A stretch of DNA of 38,270 nucleotides from Peptococcaceae bacterium BRH_c4a (lineage in GTDB: Bacteria > Bacillota > Desulfotomaculia > Desulfotomaculales > Desulfocucumaceae), in contig LADN01000021.1 in assembly GCA_000961585.1 (NCBI GenBank), positions 1 through 38,270 on the forward strand, read 5' to 3'. A program made the translations under genes and the position numbers. Within the stretch, counting starts at the first letter, position 1. Each line of letters opens with the position of its first letter. Positions 7,274 to 18,300 of the stretch are shown piece by piece. The notes below the pieces were generated by a model. That model saw only the letters and a list, made by a program, of their open reading frames with translations. It was not told the origin of the DNA and searched no databases.

Positions 7274-8359
7274 TTATTTTGGGGTAAACAGCGCATAATT
7301 GTTGAGCTTTAAATGTTTATCAATAAATAGGTTCTTGTCATCCAGGTTATACCCGTGAATGTAGATAATACTGTTGCTGTTTTTTACATGATTTATTATT
7401 TCCTCCACCCCGATGAAGCCGCTTCCCATCCTTTTAACGGGTATTACCTTGAACGCCAGCCCCAGCCCTTCACAGGTGATCCTTTCCGTTTCAATCCGCT
7501 GGGCGTCCTCCATGTTATCAGGATCAAGGCAGGAAATCACTTCTTTAATCTGGCACCTCACCACCAGGTCAAGCCACTCGTCCTGGACGGGCAGGGGGCC
7601 CAGAATAATCCTTTTGTTCTGGTAATACTTGAGTTCACCCCGCTCGATCCTTGCCACGTAAGCCGACTGGCCGGCCTCGCCAAGGGTCTCTTCAACAATC
7701 ATTCTGGCCAGATTGGTTCTGTGTTTTCCCAGATTGCAGTGCACATAATAGCGGCCCTTTTTGCTCTTAACCAGCTCCTCTAATTTCTCTATGGACTCTT
7801 TATTGCTGCTTACCCAGGGAAGCATGGGGAAGGAGTGAACTTCCATCCCTATCTTCCTGCCGGCCTCTATTTCCTTGTCCAGGAGTATTCTCTCAAACGG
7901 TATGGTTGGGCTTAAGAGCGTAACGACCCCGGTATACCCCCCTTTTTTTAATATTCTCAAATAGGCCTCAGTGGGGTAGGGACCGTAGGCAAACCCCTTC
8001 CCCGACTCAATGACAACGCCCTTTATAACCGCCATAAGAGCACTGTCCGTAGAAAGGAGTGTGTAAAAGATACCCGAGCAGACAAAAAATAGTCCCGCAA
8101 TTATATATACGGCCAAAGACCGAAAAACCCTGTCCCGGGTAATTCCCCTGTGAAACGTAAAGGCGGCGGCAAGGGAGACGGCGGCCCATATAAATATAAT
8201 CACGTTCATAACCAGATCGATTGTGCCCTGTGAAACCTGTGATCGCTTTAAAACGGCTTCTACCGGGGTGCTGACAAAAAAAAGAAAAAATACGCCCAGT
8301 GAAAATCCGGCCAAAGCCATAAATGAAGCAATAAAAAACAATACCTTTACAGTGCCCAT
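7274..8359 (-). CDS. Membrane-anchored tandem protein-tyrosine/dual-specificity phosphatase, second domain degenerate
   Basis: Last gene of the exosortase-type operon. Residues 1-105 hold about four membrane segments. The first phosphatase domain (about 118-245) has the active-site loop HCNLGKHR, that is C208-x5-R214. A second copy follows (about 250-350): YGPYPTEAYLRILKKGGYTGVV in the first matches LGPLPVQDEWLDLVVRCQIKEVI in the second, and YYVHCNLGKHR matches IYIHGYNLDDK. The second copy therefore has Gly336 where the catalytic Cys should be and lacks the Arg, so it is probably a regulatory or binding pseudo-phosphatase. The ATG at 8359 follows GAGGGATG. Inferred role: dephosphorylating a protein or lipid-linked intermediate of the polysaccharide pathway at the membrane. 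The substrate is unknown. Confidence 0.75.
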   Translation of the reverse strand: MGTVKVLFFIASFMALAGFSLGVFFLFFVSTPVEAVLKRSQVSQGTIDLVMNVIIFIWAAVSLAAAFTFHRGITRDRVFRSLAVYIIAGLFFVCSGIFYTLLSTDSALMAVIKGVVIESGKGFAYGPYPTEAYLRILKKGGYTGVVTLLSPTIPFERILLDKEIEAGRKIGMEVHSFPMLPWVSSNKESIEKLEELVKSKKGRYYVHCNLGKHRTNLARMIVEETLGEAGQSAYVARIERGELKYYQNKRIILGPLPVQDEWLDLVVRCQIKEVISCLDPDNMEDAQRIETERITCEGLGLAFKVIPVKRMGSGFIGVEEIINHVKNSNSIIYIHGYNLDDKNLFIDKHLKLNNYALFTPK

Positions 8360-8396
8360 TAAAACGCATCCCTCATAACTGGCTGAAGAATATTAA

Positions 8397-9713
8397 TTAC
8401 CAGAACTTGTTGGATTTCAGCGCCCTGGTGAACTGGGTCACTGGATTTTCCACCTGCCAGGATTTAAGCTCAGTGAGAGCCATAAGAATCCCGGACATCC
8501 GGAACCAGTACGAAAAATACCTGTAAACAGGCAGGAAAAGCACAATCCACCATATTTTTTTTAAATCCTTGCGGTAAGCCTTATTAACGCTTTTATAGGC
8601 CACCAGGAAATATGCTGCATCCAAAAGCAGGTAGCATAAAAAAAGACCTGTCATGGAGATAACCACCAAGGGAAGTGAGTATCCCAGAAAATAAAGGAAC
8701 GGGATTAAAAAAGTCCATGTCAGCCTTGAAAAAGCCTGGGTGTGGTCGGAGATGAGTATGCGGCCGGTAAATTCCTTTACGGCCTGAAAAGCGTTGGGAA
8801 TATTGCTGAAAGAAATAGAGGCCACCTCTATTTCCCCACGCTGCCACCGCACCCTCTGTGAATAAAGGCGGGACAGGGACTCTATGGGTTCGACAAAGGC
8901 CACCGCACTGGAAATTGAGCCTATACGGGCCTTTTTATTCTTTACTGCATTTCTGATGTAAAAGGTCAGATCGGTATCTTCGGCCAGCGTACGATCCTGA
9001 TACATAAAGGATTGAAGAATTATGTCCCGGCGAAACACCGAAAAAGCGCCGGACAGCGTAAACAGGGTATTGGTCAACGTCTGGTAGCGCCTGCCCACGT
9101 CAAAGGCAATCAGGTATTCAATTACTTCGCAGTAGTTGACTATGTCTATAAAGCCGAAATTCTTGCCCAGTTCCTTGTCCACCCTTATTGTCCCGGTGGC
9201 GGCCACCAACGACGGATCATTTTCAAAAGTCTTCACAACCTGCATTATGGCGTCCTTATCCAATGTTGTGTCCGAATCCAGGTTGCACAGGTAAGATCCT
9301 TTTCCGGAGTAGAGGCCGGCGTTTAACGCCCTTGACTTGCCCGGCCGGTCAAGCTTGGCCCAAGATACCGCCAGTTCATGGTGTTCGGCCTGAAACCTCT
9401 GGAATACCTCAAAGCTGTTGTCCTGGCTGCCGTTATCAACGCAGATTACATGAATGCAATCAACGGGGTAGCTCTGGTACAATATGGACCGAAGGCACTG
9501 GTAAAGGTTCCCGGTGGAATTATACACCGGAACAACAATCGTCACCATGGGATAAAAAGTAAGCTCGGGCACCGGTTTAGCCTTATAACTGTGGAAAAAA
9601 AGGCTGATGAAATAAACTATGGCCGTAGAAATGTCAAACATAAGTGGAGCCAAAAGCCAAACGCCCCAAAACAGAAGAAAATTAAGCGTTCTTTCCAAAA
9701 AAATCTCATCCAT
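8397..9713 (-). CDS. Membrane family 2 glycosyltransferase, exosortase-G-associated type
   Basis: 438-residue processive-type GT2 enzyme. Two N-terminal membrane segments precede the catalytic domain, which starts at VTIVVPVYNSTGNL. The nucleotide-sugar site includes CVDNGSQD and the DxD motif D146-S147-D148. The acceptor loop is SGAFSVFRRD, the general base region LAEDTDLT (E245, D246), and QRVRW (286-290) is the QxxRW motif of cellulose/hyaluronan-synthase-like enzymes. At least three C-terminal membrane segments follow. It overlaps the exosortase gene by 8 bp, so translation is coupled. This GT type is a known companion of XrtG and the PTPS-like membrane protein, and all three are adjacent here. 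Likely job: polymerising or extending a surface glycan. Confidence 0.88.
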   Translation of the reverse strand: MDEIFLERTLNFLLFWGVWLLAPLMFDISTAIVYFISLFFHSYKAKPVPELTFYPMVTIVVPVYNSTGNLYQCLRSILYQSYPVDCIHVICVDNGSQDNSFEVFQRFQAEHHELAVSWAKLDRPGKSRALNAGLYSGKGSYLCNLDSDTTLDKDAIMQVVKTFENDPSLVAATGTIRVDKELGKNFGFIDIVNYCEVIEYLIAFDVGRRYQTLTNTLFTLSGAFSVFRRDIILQSFMYQDRTLAEDTDLTFYIRNAVKNKKARIGSISSAVAFVEPIESLSRLYSQRVRWQRGEIEVASISFSNIPNAFQAVKEFTGRILISDHTQAFSRLTWTFLIPFLYFLGYSLPLVVISMTGLFLCYLLLDAAYFLVAYKSVNKAYRKDLKKIWWIVLFLPVYRYFSYWFRMSGILMALTELKSWQVENPVTQFTRALKSNKFW

Positions 9714-10908
9714 CGCTTACATACTCCCTGACGATTTTAAGCGTGGGCTTGGTTAATAAATGCCAGTAGAGGGCTACGATCAGGATGAAAAAAACAATCC
9801 GCCCGAACAGCGTATGGGCCAGAAAGATCATATCCCGCCCCCCCAGGTGTATTATGGTTATCACCACCATGATGCGAATGAGGTTGATCACAAACACAAT
9901 GAAAACCGACACCGGGGAAAACACCAGCCTCTTAAAAAGACTGTATCCCGGATAGAACAGCAGCAACCCCAGCAGGATGCACATCTCCAGGAGGCCGGAG
10001 CTCTCTATGTCGATATCGATGGTAGTCCAGCTCCTGTCCACTTCTATAAGGACCAGTATAGTTCCTGGGGCTTTGTCGAAAACATTGGTTTTTATATCCA
10101 TAAAATTTAAAATATAATGTATCAACAAACCCACCAGGTTCTCCATCTGGTATTCCAGAAACGAACCCCTCAGCAGCAAAATGGAAATGTAAGTGAATCC
10201 CACAGCGGCAACAATATAATAAAAGAGCCAGATCCGGTGGCGGTAAAAAAAGGCGATTGCCGCACACCAGATTAGAAAGCCCACAGCAATTAACGACCTG
10301 CTCTTGGTAACCACCGGAAAGGGCATCCACAAGACATCGCCTTGGTCAGGCAGGCGGTCTGCGCCGCTACCGGCGCCGGAGATATAAAACCTCACAGGCT
10401 GGGCTGGAAAAACATTAATATCTTCCATAGATAAGGCGAATTCAAAACGTCTGCCCCCTTCCCGGATCGATTCCCCCAAGTTTCCACTGTAGGTGTTCAC
10501 ATGGTTACCGGCAACCGAATACAGACTGACTTCCACTTCCCCGTCCAGGCCGGGGCTGTAAACCACCTCAGAATACTTGTCGACAGCGTCCTCATAACTG
10601 CCGTTGCTATTGACATCAAAATACACCCGGCAGGTCATTTTACTGCCCGCATTCTCAGGGGAAAACCTTTCCACCATGAAGTACAGCTTTTGGTCGTTTT
10701 CCCCGGTCCCCCAAAAAACTGCTTTAAGATCAGCGTCAACTGCTGTGTCCCCCTGACCATCAGCAAGAAAGGTTTTCTCCCCCCAGTCGTCCAAGCTGCC
10801 GTCCAGCCTTATGACAGGCTTTTTCCACTCCAGAAAGGATATTTCCGACCAGAAAAAAATCAGCAGAAAAACCATTAAAACACCGGACAGAGCAATGTGC
10901 TTCTTCAT
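9706..10908 (-). CDS. xrtG: Exosortase (XrtG type) fused to an N-terminal CBM9/DOMON-like domain
   Basis: An N-terminal membrane segment (about 5-20) leads into a beta-rich domain (about 28-195) beginning IRLDGSLDDW, the usual opening of CBM9/DOMON-like sugar- or ligand-binding domains, with a possible calcium loop DVNSNGSYED. From about 200 to 390 is a multi-pass exosortase/archaeosortase domain. Its three conserved sites can be aligned: ESSG (302-305) where most exosortases have xCSG, NLIR with R345, and AHTLFGR with H365 and R370. The catalytic Cys position is therefore Ser303, with C310 the nearest Cys. I cannot tell whether Ser is normal for this subtype. Start and stop overlap neighbours by 4 and 8 bp. 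No PEP-CTERM-type substrate is visible in the window. Confidence 0.75.
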   Translation of the reverse strand: MKKHIALSGVLMVFLLIFFWSEISFLEWKKPVIRLDGSLDDWGEKTFLADGQGDTAVDADLKAVFWGTGENDQKLYFMVERFSPENAGSKMTCRVYFDVNSNGSYEDAVDKYSEVVYSPGLDGEVEVSLYSVAGNHVNTYSGNLGESIREGGRRFEFALSMEDINVFPAQPVRFYISGAGSGADRLPDQGDVLWMPFPVVTKSRSLIAVGFLIWCAAIAFFYRHRIWLFYYIVAAVGFTYISILLLRGSFLEYQMENLVGLLIHYILNFMDIKTNVFDKAPGTILVLIEVDRSWTTIDIDIESSGLLEMCILLGLLLFYPGYSLFKRLVFSPVSVFIVFVINLIRIMVVITIIHLGGRDMIFLAHTLFGRIVFFILIVALYWHLLTKPTLKIVREYVSDG

Positions 10909-13900
10909 CTATCAGGGCCGTCCCTTCTTCCGAAATAAATAAGGGAAATAAACAACATCGCCACTGAACCCACCGACAGGGCCGTCCCCCACCGGTAGTC
11001 CGGACCCTTTGTCAGGGCTATAACGATGGTGTGGCTGCCGGAGGGGAGGCTCATCTGCAGCAGATTTTCATATTTACCAGTCTCCCACGGCGTACCATCC
11101 ACTCTCACCGTCATCCCGTCCATGGCGGCGATGGGCACTATAGCCTCAAAACCGTGATCAGAATTGTAGCCCAGCACATATCCATTTTCTGTAATGCGAT
11201 ATTCCGTTAATGGAACCGTTTGCTGAGCCTCATAATTCATACTTAAGTTCAGGATGTCTTTAATAATTTTCAAGGCCACCGGATCACCCGTCAGATAGGC
11301 ATGATAACTAATATTGGCGCCAAGGAAATTTATCCTGTGGCCGTTAACCACCTTATAGCCGTAAACAGGGGCGCGGTTTCCATAATACATAAACTCCATG
11401 GCTATCTCGTCAAGCCCCAGTGGAATGTAAGACTTCCAAAGAGGTATTTCCGGCGAAAATGGCTGCAGCAAGTATTTCTTATCCCCACCCAGAATTTCCA
11501 ACTGCCCCCGCAGGGTCACCGTCTCACCGGCCACACCCAGAAACTCGGGCTGCTTGGAAAGCACGTTTTGGGGCATGCCGGCCAGCTCTATGAACACCTT
11601 GCCTCCGGCCTCCGCATACCGGGTAACCGCCTCGGCTGCCCTGGACTTGGAACGCCATTCCGACCCGCTGAAAATAACCTGGGGGAATTTTTTCAAATAC
11701 TCAAGAGGGTAATCGTCAATATAAGCGGAGTATCCAATTTCCACCCCGGGAAACAGCATGGACAATATCTCACCCTGCTTTCCCACCACCAGGCATTTAT
11801 TTTTTTTCTCCACCAGGTACGGCCCGTCCTTGGAGTGCCACAGGCTGATTCCAGCCTCACCGCCCAGATACTTGTAACCCGCAATGCCGGCGGCCTTGCT
11901 GAAGGCATCCTTTCCCTTTATCACCTCATCATCCACCACCAGTTCGGTGGCGCCAAGGTTGATACATGACCGGAATAAAAATGGATAATACTCCTTTTCC
12001 AGGCCGGTATTAAGGAGCATGATGCTGGAGGACGTAACAGCCCCCTGCCAGGCCCAGCCAAAGACCTGCTCCAGCCCGGCAGTATTGGAAAAAATGAAGG
12101 AGGGGGCCGAACCCAACCGGCTAAGATCTAAGGTGGCAACGCGCCAGCCGCGCCTGTCCTCCAACATCCCGGCTATTTCCATCAGGCTGGACGATCTGGG
12201 CCCAGTATAGACCAGAGTCCTCACTGAAAGGAGGCAGTCTAACAGCAGAGCAGCAAAAATCCCCGCTATTAAAAAGCCTGTGACATATGTAGACTTAAGC
12301 AGCCGCTGGCGCCCTTCCGGCGGGTTGAAGACCAAGCACGACGCCAAAAGCGCCAGGGCGGCAAAACTGGAAAAGCGCAGTGGCCAGAGAAGGTTGCTCA
12401 TGGGCATGTTTGTGTAGAAGACCTGAAATGCCGGAAAAGTTATCAGCATCAAAACAAGGCCGCAAATGACAAGGCTTTTGGCCCAGGGGGGCTTTGAAGG
12501 CCAGGCCGGCAGGGTAACGGCTATGGCCGGCAAAAGACTTATGCCCCAGTAGAAGGTTTCCCGGTTGGCAAACCGGGTGATGGGATTGAATGAAATTTCT
12601 GCCGGAACAAACTGTATGGCGCTTCTGACTGCCTCAGCGTCAAGGCTGGTTATGCCGCCGGTAAGGCTTGGCAGCAGCCACCAGGACGCACTGGCCACAC
12701 CTGCGGCAAGGGCCAGAAGACCCCTTTGGCAGTCTCCTGGCCGGCACCCGCCAAAAACCCACAGCAGAAAGGTAAACATAAGCAGACATAGGCAGTATAT
12801 AGCGGCTATCATTGCGTGGCATAGTATTACCAGGTGGATAAGCACAACAACGGACAGCAGGTTTAAATAAGACTTCCTATTTTCCAACGCCTTTAGAAAT
12901 ATAATAAATAACAAAGGCAACAGTGCAGTTGCCAGCACCCGGGGCAGATTACCCTCCGAAAAGGCGACCCTGACGTTATCCTGCCACACTGACCAGACAA
13001 CCCCGGCCAGAATGGAAGGCGCCAGGCCCATCCGTCCGGAATATAAGATCCATGAAAGGCCCCCAAAAAGCGCGCATACGAATACAAAATAAATGCCGGC
13101 ATAATAAATATCACCGGTGAACCACCGCATCAGGGCCAGCAGATAATAAGGCAGCGGGGCCCAGTACCGGAAAGGCTGGCCGCCGTTATACCAAAACTGG
13201 GAAAAATCCGGGTAATAATTGCCTTTTAAAATTTCGTGGTATAGGTATTCAGCCTTAAAAAGATGCCCCCAGGTATCTGAACCCCATGGATAATGCTGTT
13301 CAGCGGGGGGCCAAAGAACATTGCCGTATGAAATAATAGCAGCCAGGCTGATGATTAATACAGCGAGCAGGTAACGGCCGGCCGATTGCCTGAAGCCAGT
13401 GACAGCGGCGGTTTTTTCCAGGTCCGGGGCAGGTGCCGCACAAGCCTCCTCCTGAATATTCCGGAAAGGGTAATCCTGGGCATCGCCGGAGACGGTGGTC
13501 ACCGCCACCTGTTGCAGCGCCTCCGGGGGGTCATCCTCTTGCATCCCGTTTCCATCCAGCCCCTCAAAGCCGGCGAAACGGCAGTTTACTTCTATCCCCT
13601 TGGTTGGAGTCTCCCAAACTGAAAGCCTTCCCAGGCTGAGATCCATGCTTTTCAATATGTCATCCAGCCTGTTGAAAAAAAACAGGGCCATATTCTCTGT
13701 GGTTGGCTGGACCTTGTTGAAAGGATATAACTTGTTTAAAAGACTTTCTTCATAAGGAATAAATACTGACTTGACGGCGTCCAATACCTTGGCAAATCCA
13801 ACCAACTCAGACTTCCCCGGAACCTGTACATCGATCTGTATCTGCCAGGAGTGGGCGTGCACCGGGCCGGTTTTTTTTCCAAAAGACACAAAGTGCCTGG

Positions 13901-14366
13901 CGTTTACAAAGGTAGCCAGTTTAATGATATAGGTCGACGGGCTGTCGGTCCCATTATAGAAACCATCAGATTTTAAATCCCGGCCTTTCAGTGCCGGTTC
14001 TTCCCGTCCATCCGCCCCTTCGCTTTCAGGGCGTGAGAATCGCTGATAAAACCGCATCTCCCTGCCAAGGGCGTTAATTTCTTCATTGATGCCAACCAGT
14101 TGTTTCTCTTTTGAGGCAACTGTCTCTTCCGCCTCCGCCAGTATCAGCACAGCTTTCAGGCGGGCTTTGCTTTCTGTTTCCCTGGCAACCTGATCACAAC
14201 GGGCAAGAGCCCGGCTGGCATAGCCGGATTCTACTTCCTTGTCAACAATCTTTTCATTTAATTCCTCTGCCTCTTTTTTCAGCCGCTCTTTGAGGCTCAG
14301 GCATTGTACCAGCTCATCCTCAAGCAGTCTTACCGTGCCTGCGGCGCCATTATCTCCCGTACCAAT
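10905..14366 (-). CDS. 6-pyruvoyl-tetrahydropterin-synthase-like domain fused to a large membrane protein (PTPS_related)
   Basis: Numbered from the GTG at 14150 there are 1081 residues, but coiled-coil coding continues upstream to a stop at 14370-14372, so the GTG is not the real start. No ATG, GTG or TTG lies in that extra frame; an ATT (14366) stands 7 bases after a GGAGAGGG site. From the GTG: coiled coil (1-35); PTPS-like fold (about 70-215) with zinc-type ligands H86 and H98-x-H100, ENMALFFF and WETP; then about ten membrane segments from about 258 with YWAPLPYYLL; a large outside domain; and a final membrane helix near the C-terminus. The membrane part resembles lipid-sugar glycosyltransferases. 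The fusion is the known PTPS-related partner of XrtG loci. It overlaps the exosortase start by 4 bp. Confidence 0.8.
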   Translation of the reverse strand: MGTGDNGAAGTVRLLEDELVQCLSLKERLKKEAEELNEKIVDKEVESGYASRALARCDQVARETESKARLKAVLILAEAEETVASKEKQLVGINEEINALGREMRFYQRFSRPESEGADGREEPALKGRDLKSDGFYNGTDSPSTYIIKLATFVNARHFVSFGKKTGPVHAHSWQIQIDVQVPGKSELVGFAKVLDAVKSVFIPYEESLLNKLYPFNKVQPTTENMALFFFNRLDDILKSMDLSLGRLSVWETPTKGIEVNCRFAGFEGLDGNGMQEDDPPEALQQVAVTTVSGDAQDYPFRNIQEEACAAPAPDLEKTAAVTGFRQSAGRYLLAVLIISLAAIISYGNVLWPPAEQHYPWGSDTWGHLFKAEYLYHEILKGNYYPDFSQFWYNGGQPFRYWAPLPYYLLALMRWFTGDIYYAGIYFVFVCALFGGLSWILYSGRMGLAPSILAGVVWSVWQDNVRVAFSEGNLPRVLATALLPLLFIIFLKALENRKSYLNLLSVVVLIHLVILCHAMIAAIYCLCLLMFTFLLWVFGGCRPGDCQRGLLALAAGVASASWWLLPSLTGGITSLDAEAVRSAIQFVPAEISFNPITRFANRETFYWGISLLPAIAVTLPAWPSKPPWAKSLVICGLVLMLITFPAFQVFYTNMPMSNLLWPLRFSSFAALALLASCLVFNPPEGRQRLLKSTYVTGFLIAGIFAALLLDCLLSVRTLVYTGPRSSSLMEIAGMLEDRRGWRVATLDLSRLGSAPSFIFSNTAGLEQVFGWAWQGAVTSSSIMLLNTGLEKEYYPFLFRSCINLGATELVVDDEVIKGKDAFSKAAGIAGYKYLGGEAGISLWHSKDGPYLVEKKNKCLVVGKQGEILSMLFPGVEIGYSAYIDDYPLEYLKKFPQVIFSGSEWRSKSRAAEAVTRYAEAGGKVFIELAGMPQNVLSKQPEFLGVAGETVTLRGQLEILGGDKKYLLQPFSPEIPLWKSYIPLGLDEIAMEFMYYGNRAPVYGYKVVNGHRINFLGANISYHAYLTGDPVALKIIKDILNLSMNYEAQQTVPLTEYRITENGYVLGYNSDHGFEAIVPIAAMDGMTVRVDGTPWETGKYENLLQMSLPSGSHTIVIALTKGPDYRWGTALSVGSVAMLFISLIYFGRRDGPDR

Positions 14367-14405
14367 ATGTTATCCCTCTCCTCCTGATTTATCAGAGTAA
14401 CAGCG

Positions 14406-14894
14406 CTACGCCCTCTGCCTTTCGGAAACCACCAGGGTTGGCGTAAAATTAGTTTCCCGCGTTCCGACATCCGGCTCTTTGATAGCTTCCACCGAAATCT
14501 TGTAGCTTTCCAGTGCCCTTAGGAATTCCTCTTTGAAAGCTCCTATTTTTATTCTTAAAGATTCAAGCTCCCGGAGTTTTTTATCGACCTCCGCATCAGC
14601 TTTGTCAATCATTTCACGGGCTTTTTCCCTGGCTTCATCTTCAACCTTTTGAGCATTTTTTTGGGCGATTATCATTACTGACGAAATCACGTGTTCCCTT
14701 TCCTTGTATTCATTCAGTTTCTCCTGTAGTTGTTTGGCTTGTTCTTCATATTCTTTTATTTCCGATTTAACCATTTCTATTTCGGATTGCAGAGCAGAGA
14801 CCTTTTCTTGGTATTCCACATCCATTATTCCCATTTGGTTTATAACTTCCTCAGGTTTAAATCCAAACAGGGTTCTGCTGAACGCTTTTGTCAT
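14406..14894 (-). CDS. DivIVA-like coiled-coil protein
   Basis: 162 residues. The N-terminus GFKPEEVINQMGIMDVEY resembles the DivIVA/GpsB membrane-targeting motif, and about residues 25-140 form an almost unbroken charged coiled coil. Such proteins mark curved membrane, septa or poles and recruit cell-envelope machinery; here it may place the polysaccharide complex, which is inference. The ATG at 14894 follows AAGGAGTG. That ribosome site overlaps the stop codon of the preceding Cys-rich gene, so the two are translationally linked. The next gene begins after an AGGAGGAGAGGG site about 20 bases beyond the stop of this one. Confidence 0.72.
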   Translation of the reverse strand: MTKAFSRTLFGFKPEEVINQMGIMDVEYQEKVSALQSEIEMVKSEIKEYEEQAKQLQEKLNEYKEREHVISSVMIIAQKNAQKVEDEAREKAREMIDKADAEVDKKLRELESLRIKIGAFKEEFLRALESYKISVEAIKEPDVGTRETNFTPTLVVSERQRA

Positions 14895-14908
14895 AATTAA
14901 AACACTCC

Positions 14909-15211
14909 TTATTCATCAATATTTTCCAGATTATATTCTTTTATCCGTTTGTCATATCCATATAGAGAGCATTGAAATATTCGAGCTATTGCAAGGCTTG
15001 CGCCATCGGGGAGAGAAGTCCATATACTGCAGTGAATGCAGGTCTTACTGTAAACCGTGCCTACTATAGAAATATTTTTATTGCAGCATTTTCCCATGCA
15101 GGGAAATTGCCGCTCAAGCACTGCACAATTACAACCGGAGCCGGTACCCCGGCTAATATCGGCAAGTTGTTCGTCACCCAAGGGTATGCTGGGATTTTTT
15201 TTATCAGACAC
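14909..15211 (-). CDS. Cys-rich 100-residue protein heading the exosortase-type operon, leader-like N-terminus
   Basis: I do not recognise this protein. The GTG at 15211 has GAGGTG at 7-base spacing, a near-ideal site, and the stop TAA overlaps the ribosome site of the next gene, so I regard it as real. Eight Cys lie at 27, 29, 38, 42, 43, 58, 61 and 81 (patterns CxC, CxxxCC, CxxC). The N-terminal SIPLGDEQLADISRGTG looks like the leader of ribosomally made peptides, whose leaders often end in an acidic helix followed by Gly. No modifying enzyme lies nearby, so a metal-binding or redox protein is equally possible. It has no signal peptide. It is the first gene after the operon promoter at 15277-15302. 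Confidence 0.6.
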   Translation of the reverse strand: MSDKKNPSIPLGDEQLADISRGTGSGCNCAVLERQFPCMGKCCNKNISIVGTVYSKTCIHCSIWTSLPDGASLAIARIFQCSLYGYDKRIKEYNLENIDE

Positions 15212-15276
15212 TGGGTTTCACCTCTATCTGGAAGAACAAATCAGGGTTAAAGGCTCTCCGTGATCTGTTCAATATC

Positions 15277-15302
15277 ATTATAAATCACAGTAACTAACAT
15301 AA
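15277..15302 (-). promoter_or_regulatory. Promoter of the exosortase-type operon with shared GTTAGTT element
   Basis: On the minus strand, TTATGTTAGTT (15302-15292) is followed by exactly nine bases and then TATAAT (15282-15277). There is no good -35 hexamer 17 bases upstream (CTGTTA), which suits an activator-dependent promoter. Further TGTTA copies lie just upstream. The predicted leader to the GTG is about 60 bases. Confidence 0.6.
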
Positions 15303-15347
15303 CAGCTAACAGAAAAATGATTTTTCCATTCTTTTGATATTTTTTTA

Positions 15348-15389
15348 TTACGTTAGTTGTAATCTGATATAATATTATCACCAACGTAA
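15348..15389 (+). promoter_or_regulatory. Promoter of the STAND/BTAD regulator with the same element and an inverted repeat
   Basis: TTACGTTAGTT (15348-15358), nine bases, then TATAAT (15368-15373): the same element and spacing as in the divergent operon promoter. TTACGTT (15348-15354) also forms an inverted repeat with AACGTAA (15383-15389), which straddles the -10 and the probable transcription start and could be an autoregulatory operator. Confidence 0.55.
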
Positions 15390-15408
15390 ATATTAAGGGG
15401 TATGTAGC

Positions 15409-18300
15409 ATGGGCAATGTAGCAAGTGTGAGGCTGGCGGCTCCAAAGGCGTCAGCGGGGGAGATAGTCCGCAAAGAGCTTATTAACGCTATACTCGGCAG
15501 CAATAAGAAACTTACCTATATCCATGCGGGAGCGGGTTATGGCAAAACCACCCTGCTTTCACAGATTGCCAGTTCGAGGGAAAACACCGTTTGGATTTCT
15601 TTTGATGGCGAAAGCGACGTTTTTGCTTTCGCCATCACCCTGTGTGCTGCTGTACGGCTTCGCTTTCCCGATTTTGACTTTACTACTTCGGAATATCTGC
15701 CCTTTGAAAGAAAAGTCAACTTTATAACTATTCTTGCCAATGCGTTGATAAGTGCCGTTGAAAAGCTGGCAAAGGATTTTATCATTATTATGGACGATCT
15801 TCATACAATGGAAGAGCCGCAGATTAAGAAACTCATCGCCTGTATTGTCAAATACAAACCGGAAAATATTCAACTTTGCCTCAGCGGCCGGGAGTCCCCC
15901 TGGAAGGAACTTGTTCCTCAGCGTGTGAGAGGCAATATATTAGAGCTCACCCAAAAGGAACTTAAATTCACAAGAAACGAAGTAATGCAGATCCTGGGTT
16001 TTGATGATGAGAATATTTATGGCATCACAGAAGGATGGCCGCTTGCCATCGGCTCTTTTAAAATACTTTTGGAAAACGGCGTATCCCTTGTTGATATTCC
16101 CGGACAAGGAAATGAAGCTTTGCATTCTTATCTCTTATATGAATGCATCAGCCGTCTCCCATCTGAAATTGTGGATTTTCTGAGAACTACCGCTTGCTTT
16201 GAGGAATTGGACGCACAAATGATTGATGCAGTTTTAGACAAAAGAAATTCAAAACTTCTGTTTGAAAGCCTTGTATCGCGAAATATTTTCACAATAAGGA
16301 CAGACAACGGACTATACCGTTATCATTCACTTTTCAGGGAGTATTTATTGGAAGGCACAGAGGATTTACAAAGATTTTTATTACTTAATAAAGCCGCTTC
16401 TTTTTACTACGACAAAAAACAATACTCCAAAGCCGCAGAATATGCAATCATTTCAAAAAACGCAGAAATGCTGCGACAAATCATATTAACCAGCTATAAG
16501 AACCATATTAAATGCGGCAATTTCAGTGAACTACGCTTGTGGTTTCAAGCTCTTAACGATGCAAATGCTCTAATAAGCCATGAAATTTTAGTGGCGAAGG
16601 GCGCTTTTTTATCAAGCACTGGAAACTTCAGCGATGCCAACACATGCCTGGATACAGTGATACCTTTATTAAGCGCAGATGATCAAGAACTTTATATAGA
16701 AGCCATGATACACAAAGCAAGGGTGCTTCGAAACTTTACCTCTTTCGAGGAGTCAAACAAACTGCTTGATGAGCTTTTATTAAGCACTGACAACCTTGCT
16801 TCCGATATGCTATATGCCGTTGCCATTGAAAAGATTTATAACTTATGCTGGACTTCCCAAATAAGGGAAGCCTACGCTGCCACATATCACATGATCTTAA
16901 CATGTGCCAAAGCAGGTGATGTACAAGTTAAAGCCTGGTTCGAGAGATATTTGACCACAATACACTTTTTTGCAGGCCGGATGAAAGAATCCGTTTACTG
17001 TTATGAAAAATCTCTTGAACTCCCGGAAAATGATCAGAAATATTTAGATATACACAACGTAGGCATATATGCGGCAAAGGCTTATCAAATACTGGGCGAC
17101 CAAAGCAAAGCCGTGTCCATCATATCAACGGAGATTCAAAAACTAAGGAGTACAGGAAGATATGAAGAAATGTGGGCAGCCTATCTTTTAGCAGCAGAAA
17201 TACACTATCATATCGCTTATGTAGATAGAATGAATGGCGGCAGCCAAACCTATGAAACAGCAATTAAATATTTTACCCTTGCGGATGAGTATGCGCCACT
17301 TTACCGCGCCACCGAATTCCAGATGCTATGGGCAAAAATACAGCGCCTTATCTGCAGCCTCATTTTTTTAAATGACGCGAAAGAACCTATTATAACCGAA
17401 ATTCTCGCAAACTTTGATAAAATAAATGACTATTTAAAAACCATCGTTTTAGGCAGGCTCTTCAGTTATTATGCCGCTGTGTCCGATTTCCCAAGTGCCG
17501 TTAAATACGCAAAGCTTTCGATAAAAATCGGAGAAGAGTCCAATATTATGATCATTCCAACCATTGCTTACGGTGTGCTGGCCAGAGCTTTCATCACCAT
17601 GCAGGATCATGACCAGGCAGTCTGGTTGACCCAACGCTATCTGCAACTTTGTTCCGAAAACGGTATATATGATTTTTTCAGGATGCGCAAGGCGTATGCC
17701 CCAATCCTTGAATTTGCGCTTGATAATGGTATAGAGCCTGATTTCGCAGAACAAATGATGGCATTGACAGGTTATAAAACAAAAAAGGTATATATCAAAA
17801 CTTTGGGTGGATTCTCTGTTTTCCCCTATAAAAACAGACAAAACCCGCTAAAAATGCGCACTAAAAAGGAGCGTGAGCTTTTAGCTTTTCTTATTGATGC
17901 AGGTAATGAAGGAGTTACCAAGGAACAAATATATAATGCAATATGGTCGGAATCTGAATCTAATGACATAAAAAAGCTTATTGGGGTTAATCTTTCCCAT
18001 ATTAAAAAAGATCTTTCCAGCCTCGGTGTTGAAAACCCTATTATAAATAATGAAAAGCATTACAGCATTTGCATGGATGAAATTCAGTGTGATATCGAGC
18101 TTTTCCAATCGGCTGTTGAAGAATTTAAGCTTCAACACAGCAATGAAGCAGCACAAAAGATTTTATCGCTGTACAAAGGTGAATATCTCTCTGATTTTGA
18201 AGCGCTTTGGGCCATCGGTAAAAGAATAAGATGCAGGGAAGCCTATGAATTGGCTTTAAATCATAGCGTTAAGAAAAATAATCTCCACACTAATCTATAA
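15409..18300 (+). CDS. STAND-type ATPase transcriptional regulator with C-terminal winged helix and short BTAD (SARP/MalT-like)
   Basis: 963 residues. The N-terminal NTPase has Walker A GAGYGKTT (41-48) and Walker B FIIIMDDLH (D129, D130), as in MalT/AfsR-type signal-transduction ATPases. A long helical, TPR-like sensor region spans about 330-780. From about 790 comes an OmpR-like winged helix (IKTLGGFSVFPY, KERELLAFLIDAG), then a BTAD-type start (CDIELFQSAVEEF, YKGEYLSDF). The BTAD part is only about 70 residues against about 145 in typical SARPs, so it looks shortened at 18300. The ATG at 15409 follows AAGGGG. It is divergent from the exosortase-type operon and shares its promoter element, so it is probably that operon's ATP-dependent activator; the ligand is unknown. 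Confidence 0.85.
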   Translation: MGNVASVRLAAPKASAGEIVRKELINAILGSNKKLTYIHAGAGYGKTTLLSQIASSRENTVWISFDGESDVFAFAITLCAAVRLRFPDFDFTTSEYLPFERKVNFITILANALISAVEKLAKDFIIIMDDLHTMEEPQIKKLIACIVKYKPENIQLCLSGRESPWKELVPQRVRGNILELTQKELKFTRNEVMQILGFDDENIYGITEGWPLAIGSFKILLENGVSLVDIPGQGNEALHSYLLYECISRLPSEIVDFLRTTACFEELDAQMIDAVLDKRNSKLLFESLVSRNIFTIRTDNGLYRYHSLFREYLLEGTEDLQRFLLLNKAASFYYDKKQYSKAAEYAIISKNAEMLRQIILTSYKNHIKCGNFSELRLWFQALNDANALISHEILVAKGAFLSSTGNFSDANTCLDTVIPLLSADDQELYIEAMIHKARVLRNFTSFEESNKLLDELLLSTDNLASDMLYAVAIEKIYNLCWTSQIREAYAATYHMILTCAKAGDVQVKAWFERYLTTIHFFAGRMKESVYCYEKSLELPENDQKYLDIHNVGIYAAKAYQILGDQSKAVSIISTEIQKLRSTGRYEEMWAAYLLAAEIHYHIAYVDRMNGGSQTYETAIKYFTLADEYAPLYRATEFQMLWAKIQRLICSLIFLNDAKEPIITEILANFDKINDYLKTIVLGRLFSYYAAVSDFPSAVKYAKLSIKIGEESNIMIIPTIAYGVLARAFITMQDHDQAVWLTQRYLQLCSENGIYDFFRMRKAYAPILEFALDNGIEPDFAEQMMALTGYKTKKVYIKTLGGFSVFPYKNRQNPLKMRTKKERELLAFLIDAGNEGVTKEQIYNAIWSESESNDIKKLIGVNLSHIKKDLSSLGVENPIINNEKHYSICMDEIQCDIELFQSAVEEFKLQHSNEAAQKILSLYKGEYLSDFEALWAIGKRIRCREAYELALNHSVKKNNLHTNL

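Follow-up and report, generated by a model that had tools for sequence, protein, structure and literature searches.

We analysed a stretch of 38,270 nucleotides (nt) from Peptococcaceae bacterium BRH_c4a (contig LADN01000021.1), called the window below, for a gene cluster built around an exosortase of the XrtG family. Six open reading frames (ORFs) lie on the minus strand and a seventh, divergent one lies on the plus strand, at the coordinates given in an earlier note on this DNA (Table 1). The dense packing of the six genes described there is borne out as well: gaps of 14 nt separate the Cys-rich from the DivIVA-like gene, 39 nt the DivIVA-like from the PTPS gene (upstream start used) and 37 nt the GT2 from the phosphatase gene, while the exosortase gene overlaps the PTPS gene by 4 nt and the GT2 gene by 8 nt. 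Promoter and terminator scans of the region gave patterns no better than chance, so the operon structure is read from the spacing alone. The locus is probably an operon that builds a surface sugar polymer.

Table 1. Features of the XrtG locus and its flanks (positions in the window).
Feature	Position	Strand	Basis and remarks
Membrane dual-specificity-type phosphatase gene	7274-8359	-	Relatives and motif; C-terminally truncated compared with its family
GT2 glycan synthase gene	8397-9713	-	TIGR03111
Exosortase gene, 400 amino acids, domain fusion	9706-10908	-	ORF call; alignment
XrtG domain, residues 205-391 of the exosortase	9736-10296	-	TIGR03110; alignment; conservation in fused clade; motifs as in PMC1569441
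Codon for S303 at the exosortase nucleophile Cys position	10000-10002	-	Alignment
Former sorting-signal junction, DVLWMPFPVVTKS	10300-10338	-	In unfused proteins: P[VI]Pxx[GP], transmembrane helix and basic tail
N-terminal CBM9-like domain (predicted), residues 30-199 of the exosortase	10312-10821	-	Fold match; separate ORFs elsewhere
PTPS/GT-C fusion gene, ~1153 amino acids	10905-14366	-	PF10131; TIGR03112; fold matches; upstream frame; non-canonical ATT start at 14366 (putative)
PTPS/GT-C protein, part 1: coiled coil		-	
PTPS/GT-C protein, part 2: PTPS-like T-fold	~13581-13934	-	
PTPS/GT-C protein, part 3: GT-C membrane glycosyltransferase (predicted)	~11829-13400	-	
PTPS/GT-C protein, part 4: extracytoplasmic C-terminal domain		-	
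DivIVA-like coiled-coil protein gene	14406-14894	-	PF05103; adjacency upstream of the PTPS gene
Cys-rich protein gene	14909-15211	-	Leader-like N-terminus; separate module
MalT-like STAND regulator gene	15409-18300	+	Partner of the Cys-rich gene; outside the XrtG system

The identity of the locus as one of XrtG, GT2 and PTPS-related genes, as proposed earlier, is supported by profile matches. The exosortase scores 101.9 bits against TIGR03110 as a protein and 103.6 bits in the genome search (cut-off 102.75), and the two neighbour families that mark XrtG both score above their cut-offs, that is, TIGR03111 for the GT2 protein (393 bits, cut-off 364) and TIGR03112 for the PTPS part (75.7 bits, cut-off 69.4). 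The latter protein also matches PF10131 with 514 bits, and the motifs DSD, ED and QRVRW of the GT2 protein are intact. XrtG is carried by 7 of the 113 genomes of the window's own order, by 13 of 398 in a sample of the phylum and by 14 of 63 in a second order. In about 20 XrtG loci, the core can be read together with the region upstream of the PTPS gene, although this region is less certain in one of them (L041) because the N-terminal part of its PTPS frame is broken.

The conserved core consists of four genes, which encode the DivIVA-like protein, the PTPS fusion, the exosortase and the GT2 protein. The DivIVA-like protein matches PF05103 over residues 3-130 (41.5 bits, cut-off 28), and its gene adjoins the PTPS gene upstream, on the same strand and 19-150 nt off, in 10 of the approximately 20 loci. 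Comparison of homologous loci, the test that the earlier note had named for its extra members, thus upholds the DivIVA-like gene as a recurrent partner. In the clade that holds these loci, the PTPS proteins carry an N-terminal extension of 75-189 residues, which in most of them is rich in coiled-coil-type residues, while outside this clade the PTPS motif begins at residue 9-16 where found. G007, a genome of the same family, has the gene order of the window, AdhE, SpoVT, DivIVA, PTPS, exosortase, GT2, LysR and CoA-transferase, with one additional gene between the last two and with the STAND, Cys-rich and phosphatase genes absent. A single-protein scan of genome contigs turned up just one relative. 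The DivIVA-like protein of L014, a locus from the same genus as the window, is without the N-terminal motif.

Then, could the exosortase of this locus still act as a peptidase? Exosortases share the motifs Cys-X-Gly, Asn-X-X-Arg and His-X-X-X-Gly (PMC1569441), and the archaeosortase ArtA needs Cys173 and Arg214 for activity (PMC9263693). We aligned 28 exosortases, including 14 XrtG proteins that carry, like that of the window, an additional N-terminal domain (fused), 12 unfused XrtG proteins and two other exosortases of the same genome. The window protein has S303-S304-G305 in place of Cys-X-Gly, so that the nucleophilic Cys is missing, while it retains the other two motifs (N342 and R345; H365 and G369). 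The position reads E[SNH]SG in all 14 fused proteins versus ECSG in all 12 unfused ones; the Arg and His motifs are kept in every aligned XrtG, fused or unfused, and the two other exosortases of the genome have Cys at the aligned position. Across the 11 distinct rows of the fused clade, E302, S304, G305, C310, N342, R345, H365 and G369 are invariant, as are about 23% of the exosortase-domain columns. Since E302, S304 and G305 are among them, the Cys position has been altered within a motif that is still constrained. The fused loci form a single clade in the GT2 tree (12 rows, support 100/100), and at least 10 genomes carry an intact ORF. A catalytically intact exosortase was considered and rejected, because C310, the Cys noted at first, is not that of Cys-X-Gly. 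Judged by its sequence, the name of an active exosortase is not warranted for the window protein, which would belong to the XrtG lineage by descent. It should be noted that the XrtG of L014 is unfused, with its Cys intact, and falls outside the fused clade despite coming from the window's genus, a sign that one of these two loci may have been transferred horizontally.

The additional N-terminal domain of the exosortase is predicted to be a CBM9-like beta-sandwich with putative sugar binding, as its model matches 7nwn with a Z score of 11.2 (root-mean-square deviation (rmsd) 3.9, 159 residues), compared with Z 7 and below for unrelated matches. This domain, whose fusion the earlier note had overlooked along with the missing catalytic Cys, is encoded in diverse configurations. 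In five loci (L014, 9026-9811; L036, 9035-9724; L098, L099 and L100), it forms an ORF of its own immediately before the exosortase; it is joined to the GT-C protein described below in four (L033 and L039-L041) and to the exosortase in 14, the window included; in L015, the domain, the exosortase and the GT-C protein all lie within one ORF of 1539 amino acids. At the C-terminus of the free proteins, the motif P[VI]Pxx[GP] is followed by a membrane helix and then a basic tail; L032 and L011, the most distant of the loci, have other motifs. In nearly all fused proteins, PFPxxx[KQ], in which PFP is mostly followed by a basic residue, stands there instead and leads straight into the first exosortase helix. 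The CTERM-tailed CBM9-like protein of other XrtG loci is likely to be the exosortase substrate. The window locus has no free CTERM protein, the domain being fused and the signature altered, although a substrate might be encoded in another part of the genome. Firmicu-CTERM (TIGR04145) is the family that most members match, weakly in 10 of 11 CBM9-like members; the window domain reaches 11.9 bits (E 0.15), below the 50-bit cut-off, and the free protein of G328 reaches 116-118 bits.

The PTPS fusion protein almost certainly starts near 14366, at an ATT or other rare start rather than at ATG, GTG or TTG, because the GTG at 14150 would remove the coiled coil that the relatives keep. There, the frame opens with CAT-ATT after a stop, which probably points to a rare start or to an error in the sequence. 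Residues 251-774 of its model (mean predicted local distance difference test (pLDDT) 73, predicted template modelling score (pTM) 0.58) match STT3, AglB, PglB, PMT and ArnT with Z 18-25, for example STT3 (8age_A) with Z 24.7 and rmsd 4.2 over 461 residues and PglB with Z 21.1, and Foldseek gave E 2.6e-7 to AftD. The Asp that follows the first membrane helix (D292) is invariant in 10 of 10 aligned sequences. The membrane part is accordingly predicted to be a GT-C glycosyltransferase of STT3/PglB-like fold, a nature missed by the earlier description of a PTPS-like membrane fusion, which was right as to the PTPS part. The latter, at residues 73-190, matches 2dj6 with Z 15.1, and the C-terminal domain partially matches glycosidase-type folds. 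QueD/PTPS enzymes have a catalytic Cys shortly ahead of the HxH motif. Here, the Zn-binding His residues of the T-fold (H86, H98 and H100) are invariant, while none of the 10 aligned sequences has a Cys between its two His motifs, and pterin synthase activity is therefore unlikely. The clusters of several relatives also hold ArnF-like flippase and PgfS/ArnC-like undecaprenyl-phosphate-sugar synthase genes, which would supply a flipped polyprenyl-phosphate sugar.

With a probability of roughly 0.55, we consider the locus to be a glycan synthase plus a transferase, in which XrtG acts as a subunit without proteolytic activity that carries its former substrate as a fused domain. In the ancestral layout, XrtG would cleave a separate CBM9-like protein at its C-terminal sorting signal and join it to an acceptor. 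Within the window's clade, the substrate domain would have become joined to the first exosortase membrane helix, with the cleavage signature altered and the nucleophilic Cys gone. The simplest reading of the sequences would be that peptidase activity was lost together with the fusion and that the remaining pocket was kept for binding. The derived locus would assemble and export a surface glycan: GT2 may polymerise it at the membrane, the GT-C fusion may use a polyprenyl-phosphate donor at the outer face to transfer a sugar or an oligosaccharide, and XrtG with its CBM9-like domain may handle the product, its Arg/His pocket still binding, for instance, the glycan or its lipid. A cytoplasmic scaffold that positions the complex would be formed by the DivIVA-like protein together with the GT-C protein's coiled coil, and the phosphatase would be an optional accessory. 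The narrower proposal, that of a pseudo-exosortase in one clade of Gram-positive-type bacteria, which has lost its nucleophile, fused with its former substrate and now serves as a structural subunit that binds glycan within a GT2/GT-C assembly complex, with a DivIVA-like scaffold placing this complex, falls in our judgement a little short of even odds.

Several points weigh against such a non-proteolytic subunit. The exosortase part of the structure model is of modest confidence (mean pLDDT 74, pTM 0.54). Fusion and Cys loss are seen in one clade only, so their correlation may reflect a single evolutionary event. The ArnF- and PgfS-like genes are not in the window. The homology of the CBM9-like domain to Firmicu-CTERM is weak in sequence (best E 8e-4; best relative 19.4 bits, under the cut-off), and hhalign comparison with two CTERM proteins was undecided. 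Furthermore, the invariance of R345, H365 and C310 would suit a moved nucleophile as well as a binding site. If so, C310 would now cleave, and the fused exosortase would process its own N-terminal domain or another protein, which we regard as unlikely. C310 stands seven residues, or two helical turns, past the old Cys and is found in six unfused relatives too; however, those relatives also retain the original Cys, C310 lies within a predicted helix (306-317) and not at its end, and the fusion junction has an altered cleavage signature and no free CTERM tail. The loss of the nucleophile might alternatively mark the fused exosortase as a decaying relic beside a functional pair of GT2 and GT-C proteins, but the conservation within the fused clade, which includes N342, R345, H365 and G369, and the intact ORFs make decay distinctly improbable.

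The earlier note had placed all six genes, that is, Cys-rich, DivIVA-like, GT-C, exosortase, GT2 and phosphatase, in one pathway under the STAND regulator. The genes do share one strand with short gaps, the DivIVA-like gene recurs, and the phosphatase family is enriched in XrtG genomes: in the phylum sample, a clear relative occurs in six genomes, the window included, four of which are XrtG carriers (hypergeometric P 1e-5, against the background of XrtG in the sample). However, the enrichment drops to P = 0.004 without the window and one genome of the same genus, the closely syntenic G007 does without three of the members, and the Cys-rich and STAND genes, absent from every other XrtG locus read, form a pair in genomes without XrtG. 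Six other genomes of the order, none of them an XrtG carrier, hold Cys-rich relatives of 51-57% identity (one more match is weak), and five of the six encode a STAND protein with 62-68% identity a few genes away at most; in G088, the two genes are near the ends of separate contigs. Consequently, this pair is a separate module, and neither of its genes can be retained in the system. The full pathway, largely contradicted by the gene neighbourhoods already, is in our view the least probable of these explanations; by the earlier note's own test, the DivIVA-like partner stands, the phosphatase is reduced to a sporadic accessory and the Cys-rich gene falls.

In comparison with known systems, XrtG has been described together with TIGR03111, TIGR03112 and a Firmicu-CTERM protein (TIGR04145) in Lactiplantibacillus plantarum (PMC12854382), and the literature on XrtG systems is otherwise nearly nil. 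As there, the window encodes the exosortase, the glycosyltransferase and the PTPS-related domain together, with the CBM9-like domain immediately before the exosortase; unlike there, it has no free CTERM protein, a fused substrate-like domain and a replaced catalytic Cys, as well as the DivIVA-like partner and the coiled-coil extension on the GT-C protein. The window exosortase resembles the PEP-CTERM/EpsH exosortases and ArtA (PMC1569441; PMC9263693) as a multi-helix membrane protein with Asn-X-X-Arg and His-X-X-X-Gly, whereas the Cys of Cys-X-Gly, invariant in those, is Ser in it. The GT-C protein shares with STT3/PglB, ArnT and AftD the predicted membrane fold and the conserved Asp, and differs from them in its N-terminal PTPS-like T-fold and coiled coil. 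A DivIVA-type protein is also tied to a membrane GT2 glycan synthase, CslA, in Streptomyces (PMC13432765), where the tie is a physical interaction and no exosortase takes part, while gene adjacency alone links the two in the window. A literature search, which did not cover subscription papers, found no account of an inactive or substrate-fused exosortase. Foldseek gave no match with E < 0.001 for the whole exosortase model, and the exosortase part had no solved structure among the matches listed.

The series of domain fusions joins exosortase, substrate and GT-C transferase in one complex and suggests that the glycan machinery itself is the partner of the exosortase. An exosortase naturally without Cys and fused to its substrate would offer a built-in control for roles of exosortases besides cutting, and the DivIVA link opens the placement of the machinery to microscopy.

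Of the tandem phosphatase described earlier, the first unit holds the HCX5R signature (HCNLGKHR, ~7718-7741), with H207, C208 and R214 invariant in seven aligned sequences, while the second reads HGYNLDDK, without Cys and Arg, and is degenerate. The protein ends at 361 amino acids compared with ~580 in its relatives, and no remnant of the C-terminus was found downstream. No relative was found among the order's other 112 genomes, the gene is missing from the XrtG loci of the same family, and in the second, XrtG-rich order it occurs in one genus only, in 3 of 14 carriers. The idea of a purely local gene order was dropped once the phylum search turned up relatives in three genomes that belong to a single distant genus (G127, G243 and G526), each 8-12 kb away from XrtG and accompanied by a phosphomannomutase-type gene and, in G127 and G243, by a lipoprotein-like gene as well. 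In G129 and G301, which have no XrtG, the phosphatase lies beside another GT2 synthase. The phosphatase thus appears to be an occasional accessory of glycan loci and not a constant partner of XrtG. In two loci without XrtG (L093 and L094), it belongs to a conserved cassette whose other members are a GT2 synthase gene and an ORF (357-379 amino acids) that has no Pfam match, joined in L093 by a HEAT-repeat protein; this may be another glycan locus using the phosphatase family.

Some further observations concern the flanking and related loci. The window's STAND protein gave MalT-like and winged-helix matches, in agreement with the first half of the STAND/BTAD label; Pfam reported no BTAD. A start similar to PLEDELLAGIGGGTG is common to the Cys-rich relatives and recalls double-glycine leader peptides. 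Pairs of such a peptide and a STAND protein occur in several genera (L054-L058), possibly as a secreted-peptide system, and L056 has a further short ORF of leader-like type, along with the beginning of a protein that resembles, by eye, a C39-peptidase transporter. A conserved protein of ~720 amino acids with a lipoprotein-like start lies near the XrtG cluster in L012 (7784-9952), L035, L038, L090, L091 and L104; the L012 copy has no Pfam or NCBIfam match, and the protein (~722 amino acids) was not found in the window's genome by a search without positive control. In L016 (11576-16455, G055), phage-tail-like ORFs, a small ORF like a diversity-generating retroelement accessory and a reverse-transcriptase-like ORF abut a truncated fused exosortase; read by eye, this would fit the insertion of a prophage carrying such a retroelement. 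On contig C49 of the window's genome (L018, 8955-12236), a second exosortase-family gene, whose Cys aligns with the nucleophile position, is flanked by two ORFs ending in IPE[LF]PA, a hydrophobic stretch and basic residues, which resembles archaeal PEF-CTERM tails. Finally, an IS1634-family transposase lies at 107-1933 of the window, close to the contig edge.

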